From Micromonospora sp. MP36 (GTDB taxonomy: Bacteria; Actinomycetota; Actinomycetes; Mycobacteriales; Micromonosporaceae), in contig NZ_VSFA01000019.1 of assembly GCF_008119785.1 (NCBI RefSeq), positions 1-64,000 on the forward strand: DNA of 64,000 nt. The letters run 5' to 3'. The position numbers and the translations under genes were made by a program. Numbering within the stretch: position 1 is the first letter of the stretch; the number at the start of each line of letters is the position of its first letter. Below are positions 34,460 to 37,436 of this stretch, piece by piece. The notes under the pieces were generated by a model. It was given only the letters and a program-made list of their open reading frames with translations, made no database searches and was not told the DNA's origin.

Positions 34460-34482
34460 CCTAACCCGACCAGGTGGAGAAC

Positions 34483-35160
34483 ATGACGAAGAACAGCACC
34501 TCGACCAATTCGAGGTGGACCGGCATGGTGCCGGTCGACGATACGGCCCTCGCCGTCACCGACACCGGCGGTTGCGGTATCCCTGTGGTCTACCTCAATG
34601 GCCAGTTCGCCACTCAGGGGTACTGGCGACGGTCATCGCTGAACTGGGGACGGGGTGGCGGCACATCACCTACGACGAGCGGGCTCGCGGCAGATCGAAG
34701 CGTTCGGCGGACTATTCCTTCCAGGTCGCCGTCCGTGATGTCGATGCCGTTCTCGCGGCCAGGGGTGTGGAGCGGGCGCTGCTGGTGGGCTGCTCCTACG
34801 GAGCGGTCGTCGCGGCGCACTGGGCCAGCCGGAATCCGGACCGTGCCTTGGGCGCGGTCCTGGTTGACGGCGCGTTCCCCTACGACTGGCTCGACGAGGC
34901 TATGGAACAGCGGATCCGGAAGCTGTTTCGGCGGTTGGGCTGGTTCCTGCCGCTGCTACGCCCGACGGGCCTGGCCCCGCGGATGACCGCCGCGCAGCAG
35001 GCCGACAGCAACATCGAACTCGGCAAGCTCTCCCGCGAGCGCGAGTTGGGCCCCGTGCTGGACAACATCACCGTCCCGGCGCGGTACGTGGTTGCTTCGG
35101 GGACGTCCTTCGGCAGCCGCGGTGATGAGCAAGAACGGATACGCACCAGCGTCCCTGATC
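34483..35160 (+). pseudogene. Alpha/beta-hydrolase gene, 5-prime part (frameshifted)
   Basis: From ATG 34483 (RBS GGTGGAGA) the frame encodes the N-terminus (MVPVDDTALAVTDTGG, YLNGQFATQGYW). At about 34627 one base seems missing, and homology continues in another frame (TVIAELGTGWRHITYDERARG, nucleophile elbow VGCSYGAVVAA, GSRGDEQERIRTS). Near 35157 the gene is cut by the TnpB element. The missing C-terminus is found at 37263-37436. Confidence 0.85.
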
Positions 35161-35330
35161 AGCTTAGCGATCCTGAGTCGGGTTGTGTTTCCGGGATCGT
35201 TTCCCACCGTGCTGGGGACGCGTGGGCGTGGAAGTGGAATCCTGCGCCCAGGGCGGCTCCGCGTGGCTGATGGCCGGTGGTGGGTGTGCTGGTCGTGTTC
35301 ACGCCCTGGTGTCGGTGGGCTGCGCGGGGC
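35158..35330 (-). ncRNA. Possible omega (re)RNA at the element right end
   Basis: TnpB guide RNAs overlap the 3-prime end of tnpB and run across the right end, so their guide comes from the flanking DNA. Here the last ~60 codons of the long C-terminal tail of tnpB fill this position and the coding frame ends exactly at the junction. No structure was computed; the call rests on position and family knowledge only. Confidence 0.3.
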
Positions 35331-37120
35331 AGCCTCCGGTCCGTTGGTGCGTGTCCCTCCGGACGCTTACCCGCCCGGCTGTGGGGCCGGGTGGGGGAGG
35401 GTGCCCCGCGTCGCCTGGGCGCGGGGCGTGATGGCTTGCGCCGGGTAGGGCCGGTCTTCGACCGGTCCCCCCGGTGGCTTTTCGTGATGACCGCTGCCGT
35501 TTCGAGTTTGTCGACCACGGCGCGGATCACCATGTGCCCGTTGGTCTTGTCGGTGACGGTCTTGGCCTGATGGGTGAGGCCGCGGGCGGCGATCCGCCGC
35601 CATGCCCCGTGGTCGCGGTCGCCCTGCCAGCGGCAGGACTGGTTGGGGCAGACAGCCCACTTCCAGCCCGCCACGGTCGGCTTGTCGGGGGCTTTGCGAT
35701 GCTGCAGCGGAGTCAGGCACTGCGGGCAGTGTTTCGAGGTGTTGCGGGCGGGGACGGTGACCACGGCGATACCGGTCTCGGCGGCGAGGTGCCGCATCCG
35801 GTCGACGATCTGCCCGCGGACCTGCTGCGACAGCCGGGTGTTGAGGGTGGCGCCCATGCCCTTGGCTTCCAACGACCGCAGGTCTTCCACATAGATCACG
35901 CTCGCCCGGGAGGCGATGGCCTGGTCCACGGCCCAGCGGGCGGCGGCCCACGCGAGCGCGGCGTTCAGGTTCGTCCGGCGGTCGGAGACGTGGCGGATCT
36001 CGGCGCGTAGTACCGCCAGTTTGCCGGCGAGGTGATGCTGCTCGTCACGGCCGGCGAGGCGTTGGTAGTGGTCGGCTTTGGCGTGCAACCGCTCTGACAG
36101 CCGCCGTAGCCGGTGCTGTTTCGCGAGGATGCCGGCGGCCCGGAACTGACCACCCGCCCCCAACGCGGTGATCCGCCCGCCCTCGTGCAGGCGCAGGGCT
36201 CCCGCGCTGAGGAGAGTGTTGAGACCCCAGTCCACCCCGACCGCGACCGTGTGGCCGGTGCGCCGGGCTTTCGGCACCGGATGGCTGTATGCCATGTCGG
36301 CGTGCACCTGCCGGCCGATCACGCGCAGGGTGGGCAGGTGCAGCACCGCCGAGGCGGGGACCGTGGGCGGCAGGATGATCGGACAGGCCACCCACGCCCA
36401 ATCCGCATAGGCTCGCGGATCCGGGCGCGTGGGCAACTGCAACCGCAGCAACACCCTCCGAGGGTCGGTGTCGCTGCGTTCGATGGTGGCCTGCTGCCGG
36501 TCACACGCGGCCAGCAGCAGCATCCGCGCGACCCGTGGGACGCCTTCCAGTTCGAACACGTCCACCGGCAGCCGGCCATTGACGGCAAGGAACCTGGCGG
36601 CCTGCCGGGTGCGGGACTTGATGACGCTCGACGGCAGATGTTCCCCGCCAGGGATCGACGCCCGAACCTGCTCCCACTCCTGCGGGGTGCGTTTACGCGG
36701 ATCAGCCGGCCACGTCGCCAACACCCCGCCAGTCAGACCAGCACGCCACGACGCCGAACGCAGAACCCGCCCGGCCTGCTCCTGCACCATGCGCACGATC
36801 CGGTCATTGACCCTCACACCCACCGGCGCGGTAACCGTCCAGCCCAAACGCCGCAGCGCCATCCACGCATTCGACGGCAGCTTCCGGCCACCCGCGTCGT
36901 GTCCGGACGCCAACACCTCCACATCCGCGCAGTTCCACCGCTCCGCCAACAGGCCGGACACCATCCCCGCCACCAGATCGGCACACCAGCCAACACGCTG
37001 CGCCAGCACCGCCTGCGACAGAACCTCACCACTCTCCTCGTCCACCCCCGATCGCAGCAAAGCACGGGCGCAAGCGGTACGGGAAGCCTCACCCTCAGCC
37101 AGCGGCAGCTTCCCGCTCAC
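35159..37120 (-). CDS. TnpB-family RNA-guided nuclease/transposase-associated protein
   Basis: 653 residues from GTG 37120, longer than the ~400-residue classical TnpB. The RuvC-like triad is intact: Asp ~297 (GVDWGLNTLLS), Glu ~412 (VIYVEDLRSLEAKG) and Asp ~503 (GDRDHGAWRRIA). A zinc ribbon is present (CPQC ~465-468 and CPNQSC ~491-496). The extra length is a long N-terminal region (~290 residues) and an Arg/Pro/His-rich tail (~130 residues) reaching the element end. The start is uncertain (TTG 37147 possible). It is probably active by motif content. Confidence 0.8.
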   Translation of the reverse strand: MSGKLPLAEGEASRTACARALLRSGVDEESGEVLSQAVLAQRVGWCADLVAGMVSGLLAERWNCADVEVLASGHDAGGRKLPSNAWMALRRLGWTVTAPVGVRVNDRIVRMVQEQAGRVLRSASWRAGLTGGVLATWPADPRKRTPQEWEQVRASIPGGEHLPSSVIKSRTRQAARFLAVNGRLPVDVFELEGVPRVARMLLLAACDRQQATIERSDTDPRRVLLRLQLPTRPDPRAYADWAWVACPIILPPTVPASAVLHLPTLRVIGRQVHADMAYSHPVPKARRTGHTVAVGVDWGLNTLLSAGALRLHEGGRITALGAGGQFRAAGILAKQHRLRRLSERLHAKADHYQRLAGRDEQHHLAGKLAVLRAEIRHVSDRRTNLNAALAWAAARWAVDQAIASRASVIYVEDLRSLEAKGMGATLNTRLSQQVRGQIVDRMRHLAAETGIAVVTVPARNTSKHCPQCLTPLQHRKAPDKPTVAGWKWAVCPNQSCRWQGDRDHGAWRRIAARGLTHQAKTVTDKTNGHMVIRAVVDKLETAAVITKSHRGDRSKTGPTRRKPSRPAPRRRGAPSPTRPHSRAGKRPEGHAPTDRRLPRAAHRHQGVNTTSTPTTGHQPRGAALGAGFHFHAHASPARWETIPETQPDSGSLS

Positions 37121-37262
37121 CGGCTCATCGCCCCGCCATCGACCCAAGAGAACCCGCGATCACGACCGGCCCACATCACCGGAATCTCCCCCGAACCAGC
37201 CCAAAAGCGAAACGCCACGATCCACACGGCTAACCTAGGATCACCGACGATTCCTAATCAAG

Positions 37263-37436
37263 TTGGTCAGCCTCGAAGCGGTGACCGTCCGCAACCCGAA
37301 CATCAAGGTGAGCGCGAAGGTCGGGAGCAACCACGGCGCGATCCTGAAGAGGGACTACCCGGCCATCGCCGAGGCCGCACGCGAGGTCGCCGCCCTCGAC
37401 CGCGAGGGCACACTGAAGACACGACCAGCGGACTGA
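37263..37436 (+). pseudogene. Alpha/beta-hydrolase gene, 3-prime part
   Basis: Reads LVSLEAVTVRNPNIKVSAKV, then GSNHGAILKRDYPAIAEAAR and EVAALDREGTL to TGA 37434-37436. This is the C-terminus of the hydrolase interrupted at 35157: it supplies the catalytic His (SNHGAIL) absent from the 5-prime part. Joining cctgatca (35154-35161) to gttggtcagc (37262-37271) restores the frame of the middle part. Confidence 0.85.

Follow-up and report, generated by a model that had tools for sequence, protein, structure and literature searches.

The TnpB-encoding element described here occupies positions 35148-37273 (minus strand) of a 64,000-nucleotide stretch of DNA from Micromonospora sp. MP36, called the window in the following, and its closest described counterparts belong to the IS607 family of insertion sequences (IS607, IS1535, ISC1904). 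According to the accessible parts of the papers cited here and below, the IS607 transposase TnpA uses a GG core and has little other specificity (PMC4058570, PMC6188088, PMC11061315, PMC10711439). The GG core holds for most IS607 members and is described as typical rather than required (PMC6188088). For IS607 TnpBs the target-adjacent motifs (TAMs) AGGAG, GAGGG or GGG were reported, the first two located beside the left end, and in ISXfa1 the RNA scaffold includes the fixed nucleotide that flanks the element on the right (PMC4058570, PMC6188088, PMC11061315, PMC10711439). A model of cutting and restoration by repair is pointed to in PMC11061315. In a survey of six species IS607 TnpBs comprised 361-447 amino acids (aa), proteins of more than 600 aa were discarded during mining, and average copy numbers were mostly below 4, while IS605b in C. 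difficile averaged about 13 (PMC9956272). No literature on IS607 in Micromonospora was found. Furthermore, none of the titles and abstract openings on TnpB or IS607 TAMs, actinomycetes, Streptomyces, non-autonomy or copy number describes the present subfamily, with subscription journals mostly outside the coverage.

With good confidence, the element in the window is regarded as one copy of a high-copy, non-autonomous IS607-type element, which has kept TnpB, is most likely helped in trans and uses AGGCT as target. As in IS607, a TnpA with helix-turn-helix (HTH) and serine-recombinase domains is encoded just upstream of tnpB in relatives and in one copy of the same genome (contig C323), no target duplication is found, and the ends are compatible with a shared 2-bp core. 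Differences are the core (CT or GC, not GG), the conserved 5-bp target AGGCT, a copy without tnpA, the high copy number and a TnpB of 653 aa versus the surveyed lengths (PMC9956272). ISFba1 TnpB, guided by a RAGATH-18 right-end RNA (reRNA), has the RuvC residues D-E-D and a TAM-like motif beside the left end in common with the element and gave a weak fold match (8iaz). The ISFba1 system differs, as far as the accessible text describes it, by its TAM AGGAG or GAGGG, an reRNA separate from the open reading frame (ORF) and a length of about 390 aa; RAGATH-18 was not matched in the four loci searched here. In ISXfa1 a nucleotide fixed by the crossover joins the RNA scaffold, as CU of GACGCU would do here, but its crossover is GG and its TAM GGG. 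The IS200/IS605 element ISDra2 also encodes a TnpB, with a guide RNA overlapping the 3' end of tnpB in IS200/IS605, but is moved by a Y1 transposase. Its TAM, TTGAT, is located outside the element. After cutting by IS605 TnpB, repair restores the element. TnpB-only elements of the IS1341 group likewise contain no intact tnpA; the present element differs by a serine-recombinase remnant, a state counted as IS607 decay by the survey authors (PMC9956272).

Ends and target of the element

The genome of strain MP36 is a 9.17-Mb draft of 339 contigs, and the window represents contig C101. The whole element comprises 2126 bp with its left end at 37273; the ends were set by the limits of homology to genomic copies and by empty sites in other genomes. 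The left end (37224-37273, minus strand) was delimited by alignment of genomic copies and by an end-pattern scan. It carries at 37269-37273 (minus strand) the 5-mer AGGCT, which, judged from the closest empty sites and 34 recognised left ends, appears to be derived from the target and is the candidate TAM. The right end at 35148-35153 (minus strand) reads GACGCT, with ACGCT where the target has AGGCT, as seen in the copies.

Element DNA matched 49 places in the own genome; many of these represent truncated copies or lie at contig ends. Left ends start AGGCTGACCAACTTGATTAGG and right ends finish GATCAGGGACGCT, with small variations among the genomic copies. A pattern scan of the genome gave 32 left-end and 30 right-end matches; the number exceeds chance, since reversed control patterns gave 0. 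The 5-mer before the left-end interior was AGGCT at 34/34 recognised ends of the own genome (shifted by 1 nt in the C323 copy) and at 21/23 left ends in other genomes. The two exceptions were L074 (CATCT) and L076 (AGACT), the counterpart of which, L090, reads AGGCT. For these counts left ends were located by their interior sequence, and matches with 5-6 errors judged to be non-ends were set aside by eye; for eight own-genome left-end loci the retrieval pattern itself included AGGCT, with up to 2 mismatches tolerated. The left end was ambiguous in L091, was not found for L079 and L082, and was not visible in L085 and L094-L099. Alignments A2 and A3 were made without L071, L072, L077, L081 and other fetched loci.

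The difference between AGGCT at the left and ACGCT at the right end was consistent across copies. Both 5-mers have GC and CT in common; because L074 keeps CT only, CT appears likelier than GC as the crossover core. The sequence TTGAT occupies positions 13-17 of the left end (37257-37261, minus strand), inside the element, and recurs in other copies of the own genome. Outside the ends no motif was seen among the aligned genomic copies, because AGGCT had been counted as part of the element; when this outside motif was sought, the right ends were gathered with up to 5 errors. A terminal-repeat test of five copies, made in direct and inverted orientation, detected similarity of the ends only for L078 in direct orientation (p=0.004; other values p 0.098 to 0.98). 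As end similarity was weak in the copies tested, it is only a guess that TTGAT belongs to a repeat bound by TnpA.

For the window copy, empty sites were searched in 31 genomes, the own included, and 12 further copies were also tried, with two candidates scored per genome. Six genomes, five from the same genus and another from the same order, had the window site unoccupied, and in all of them the flanks are separated by five bases. Read on the tnpB strand, these were AGGCT in the nearest genome (L120) and in L123, AGGCC in L121 and L125, and ACGCT in L122 and L124. Copy L014 gave AGGCT in five of nine empties (L146, L147, L152, L153, L165), AGGGT in three and a rearranged site in L150. For copy L010 all three empties read AGGCT, one of them (L156) with a one-base offset, and resemblance to the own right flank was confined to its first bases. 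After the left flank of copy L013, AGGCT was found in L159 (1/5); L160-L163 align to the left flank, not beyond. No AGGCT was detected in the two empties of copy L011 (ACGCC and AGGCG) or in the single one of mini-copy L060 (L164, AGACT before the right flank). In general, AGGCT was present in at least one empty at four of the six sites examined. At the empties of the window copy, L014 and L010 a single 5-mer is replaced by AGGCT, the element and ACGCT, without duplication.

These results revise the first-pass annotation of the window in several points. It had placed the ends at about 35158 and 37262 and expected an empty site to rejoin there, with TTGAT as flanking TAM; homology to the copies runs from 35148 to 37273, the empty site rejoins at 35147/37274 around a single 5-mer, and TTGAT proved to be internal, the closest empties reading AGGCT. 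The stated absence of a target duplication agrees with the empty sites. A recent insertion was not supported, as the closest full-length copy is 92% identical to the window element and short contig-end fragments reach 98%; near-identical copies may be collapsed in the draft, so that copy number and recency are uncertain.

Loss of the transposase and candidate helper

The catalytic domain of tnpA is not present in the window copy, where alignment with the autonomous copy revealed a decayed 5' remnant of tnpA (HTH region; about 37122-37225, minus strand). In relatives from Streptomyces, Actinacidiphila and Nonomuraea an IS607 serine transposase is encoded directly upstream of tnpB. L075 and L078 encode a 209-211-aa protein with HTH and Resolvase domains, ending at the tnpB start. 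The NCBIfam model NF033518 (IS607 equivalog, cut-off 110) scored 142 bits for L075, 136.5 for L078, 142.5 for L089 and 129.6 for C323. A 205-aa ORF, putatively of the TnpA kind, ends at tnpB in L073 (Actinacidiphila).

Within the own genome, one close match to the TnpA query was identified at C323:29181-29792 (75% identical), intact and immediately upstream of a tnpB copy. The left end of this copy, AGGCTGCTAATTTGATTAGGG, is of the same kind as in the other copies, and a tree on the first 525 codons placed its tnpB beside the window-type copies, within the IS607 relatives. The other 18 TnpA matches of the genome comprised 12 at 32-36% identity and six short remnants like that of the window. 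On the basis of tnpA in the relatives and in C323, a non-autonomous IS607-type element is the best reading of the window copy, and the C323 TnpA, or a former relative, would be the helper in trans.

A further arrangement was noted on the Streptomyces mirabilis plasmid NZ_CP108478.1 (1.03 Mb), where a TnpA relative (88%) is located directly upstream of a TnpB relative (71%) at 258376-260951, as if a complete element rides on the plasmid.

Deletion classes were compared for the 27 own-genome copies in which left end and tnpB start are both visible. The distance between them was 152-154 nt in 19 copies (type I, including the window), 197-199 nt in seven (type II) and 658 nt in the C323 copy. The tnpA catalytic domain is absent from 26/27 of these readable copies; type II retains the HTH part of tnpA, and type I lacks a further ~45 nt. 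The 12-nt flanks differ in all 27 copies. Both classes were also found in Micromonospora sp. CB01531 (L067, L068, L083; L069-L072, L087, L093). Because the shared deletion forms sit at different sites, the spread followed the deletions and took place without a transposase encoded by the element itself. A single loss of the catalytic domain appears likelier than two, since the tnpA-tnpB junctions look alike.

In the Streptomyces loci L081, L084, L088 and L092 the left end is 149-202 nt from tnpB, so that tnpA is missing from these loci as well, perhaps lost independently.

Nine open-frame type I copies (88-92% identical, one cut by a contig end) gave a ratio of nonsynonymous to synonymous changes (dN/dS) of 0.19 for codons 1-520 (bootstrap 0.15-0.25). 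For codons 521-653 of the same copies dN/dS was 0.55, and the synonymous proportion fell from 0.243 to 0.138. Judged from these comparisons, purifying selection acts on tnpB in the open copies, whereas their tnpA remnant is decaying.

TnpB and the predicted omegaRNA

The gene tnpB (35159-37120, minus strand) was assigned by ORF and alignment, its GTG start being taken from relatives. The RuvC residues D297, E412 and D503 and the zinc-ribbon residues C465, C468, C491 and C496 were invariant in 19/19 aligned TnpB sequences. Relatives 48-91% identical over most of the length come from the genera Micromonospora, Streptomyces, Actinacidiphila and Nonomuraea; the loci total 33, some of them fragments. 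The distribution is patchy; with two candidates scored per genome, 4/160 congeneric genomes, own included, matched at E <=1e-60. TnpB matched the Pfam family Cas12f1-like_TNB with 35.6 bits (cut-off 26.3). A PHROGs search gave two generic transposase families and one family of unknown function, and fold matches were obtained with Cas12f, ISFba1 TnpB and Fanzor2. TnpB is probably RNA-guided.

Several statements of the first-pass annotation were confirmed here, namely a 653-residue TnpB-family protein with intact RuvC and zinc-ribbon residues, and a copy without TnpA that would need a helper, for which a candidate is now available in the same genome. The same holds for the long N-terminal region and the Arg/Pro-rich tail, both of which relatives share. 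Its assignment to the ISDra2/IS605 type was abandoned, since the autonomous copies tested carry the IS607 serine transposase and not Y1.

The end of tnpB is probably overlapped by an omegaRNA. Its scaffold would be located at 35148-35450 (minus strand, 5' limit approximate), as the fall of the synonymous rate and a consensus structure with limited covariation suggest. By analogy with published TnpB systems, the 20 nt of host DNA that immediately follow the right end on its 3' side (35128-35147, minus strand) would serve as guide. Among own copies the synonymous proportion was 0.074 in codons 561-600, and the third-position excess was lost in these codons and kept in codons 601-653. The synonymous drop fits an omegaRNA beneath the ORF end. 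Because codons 601-653 keep some coding signal, the tail may be both protein and RNA. All 34 compared tnpB frames reach near the element end, partly by construction, as rows were chosen by frame length.

The idea of a purely non-coding tail was dropped as not clean, given the third-position excess in codons 601-653.

For alignment A1, 55 right ends were required to finish ACGCT; 46 passed the coverage filter and 45 were kept after removal of near-duplicates. ACGCT in 45/45 rows is thus a selection criterion and not independent evidence. The consensus structure of the 45 rows contains 47 pairs, with 98.3% of cells paired. Cells changed on both sides numbered 13 versus a shuffle mean of 4.2 (0/500 shuffles as high); the hairpin of columns 291-306 accounts for most of these cells. 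For the terminal GACGCU a pairing with AGCGUC in the scaffold is predicted, which is nearly invariant in A1 and hence without covariation support.

Rearranged copies and interrupted gene

Some copies deviate from the general structure. L060 (530-725, contig C22) is a 196-bp mini-element that retains AGGCT and ACGCT and consists of the left tip fused to the terminal ~170 bp of the right end. Close to its right end, the copy L019 (254-2158, contig C332) is split by an insert of ~1.9 kb; the 431-aa protein encoded there resembles a group II intron reverse transcriptase by its FADD motif, judged by eye. In L055 (988-2121, contig C91) an IS3-like orfA, recognised by eye, comes after the left end, which probably reflects a nested insertion. 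Near 1210-1279 of L024 (contig C130) a solo left end lies 70 bp upstream of the left end of another copy, as if one copy had inserted into or beside the remnant of another; it was excluded from the left-end-to-tnpB distance count. In Streptomyces tailanensis (L099, 2854-3137) two inverted right ends bound 284 bp, like a foldback mini-element.

The gene interrupted by the window element encodes an alpha/beta hydrolase. Protein matches cover it in three pieces on the plus strand, the N-terminal piece at 34468-34656, the middle piece in another frame at 34632-35153, where the match extends a few bases into the element, and the C-terminal piece at 37266-37403, where it starts a few bases inside. 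The interruption had been recognised at first pass; the two readable halves assumed there were found only in part, as a frameshift near 34650 precedes the insertion point.

Discussion

In the proposed mechanism, the intact TnpA of the autonomous C323 copy, or of a former relative, would move the elements in trans by serine recombination at a 2-bp core. The 3' end of tnpB would double as omegaRNA scaffold; behind its terminal GACGCU, the right flank would supply the guide. TnpB with this omegaRNA would cut empty alleles reading AGGCT-guide, the own junction ACGCT-guide would be spared through the one-base difference, and repair after cutting would copy the element back in. The candidate TAM is likely AGGCT or part of it; TAM and guide were placed in this way because the same logic applies to published IS607 TnpBs, although AGGCT is not among the IS607 TAMs in the accessible parts of the cited papers. 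The strictness of AGG may reflect the specificity of TnpA or the loss of copies not adjoining a TAM. Only tentatively do we suggest that selection preserves the nuclease and not the transposase, as a tnpA-less guided homing in which an AGG TAM beside the CT core would decide where copies persist, own and target sites would be told apart by one base, and the tail of the 653-aa TnpB would be protein and omegaRNA at once.

Several results weigh against the IS607-type interpretation or its details. A GG core, typical of IS607, is not present, and ACGCT at the right end contains no GG; as far as accessible, the published GG cores and the TAMs AGGAG, GAGGG and GGG differ from AGGCT. Many empties read AGGGT, AGGCC, ACGCC, AGGCG or AGACT, mostly in less related genomes. 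Two window-site empties show the right-end 5-mer ACGCT, which burdens the one-base rule for self and target. In the C323 copy the contig stops before the right end is complete. The copies for dN/dS were picked for open frames, and three type I copies, L010, L019 and L021, are frameshifted, interrupted or deleted. Covariation of the predicted scaffold is limited, with 4/47 pairs changed on both sides, and further pair types do not exceed shuffles (372/500 as high). Rfam gave no match up to E 5, RAGATH-18 included, in the four loci L001, L012, L075 and L078. The NCBIfam model NF040570 (guided_TnpB) scored 44.1 bits, under its cut-off of 100. The AlphaFold2 model of TnpB is poor, with a mean predicted local distance difference test (pLDDT) score of 51.7, so that the fold matches, with a query-normalised TM-score of at most 0.21, are merely supporting.

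It is possible, though we rather doubt it, that AGGCT is set by the transposase alone, as the 5-bp target of a TnpA lineage, and that TnpB has another TAM or none or is not a nuclease. Indeed, decayed copies and mini copies, among them L060 with its 196 bp, still have AGGCT at their left end. However, the IS607 TnpAs described in the accessible literature need little beyond a dinucleotide, the IS607 TAMs given there match the sequence adjoining the left end, and purifying selection acts on TnpB in copies with open frames. A simple decay of IS607 copies without present activity, with the tnpB-only state as degradation, is improbable. Many copies are truncated, frameshifted or interrupted, and the closest pair among the nine type I copies compared is 92% identical; but each of the two shared deletion forms occurs at many distinct positions and hence moved after the deletion, and those nine copies have open tnpB frames with the low dN/dS given above.

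Two readings with other transposition chemistries receive hardly any credence from us. An IS200/IS605 element of the ISDra2 kind, inserted beside TTGAT as TAM by Y1 single-strand transposition, would account for TTGAT near the left end and for the lack of a target duplication, and eight Y1_Tnp matches were found in the genome. In contrast, TTGAT is inside the copies with no motif outside their ends, the closest empties read AGGCT, and four autonomous copies tested have an IS607 serine TnpA, so that empty sites and copies already refuted this reading; a Y1 transposase as partner was dropped once the serine TnpA was found. Equally far-fetched is the duplication of a target by a DDE transposase, with AGGCT and ACGCT as an imperfect 5-bp duplication. 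The 5-mers at both ends are similar, but duplicated targets would match, whereas AGGCT at the left and ACGCT at the right differ consistently, and the relatives carry a serine transposase; this candidate is therefore disfavoured.

With the non-autonomous IS607-type element as preferred interpretation, the TnpB subfamily, about 1.6 times as long as the ~400 aa of one survey in its accessible part (PMC9956272), offers a natural experiment on the purpose of TnpB, as copies without tnpA have kept multiplying with tnpB under selection. Retention of tnpB is what would be predicted if the nuclease shields the element encoding it or puts it back in place. The rule by which self and target may be distinguished through one base, AGGCT in the empty and ACGCT in the occupied site, is testable.

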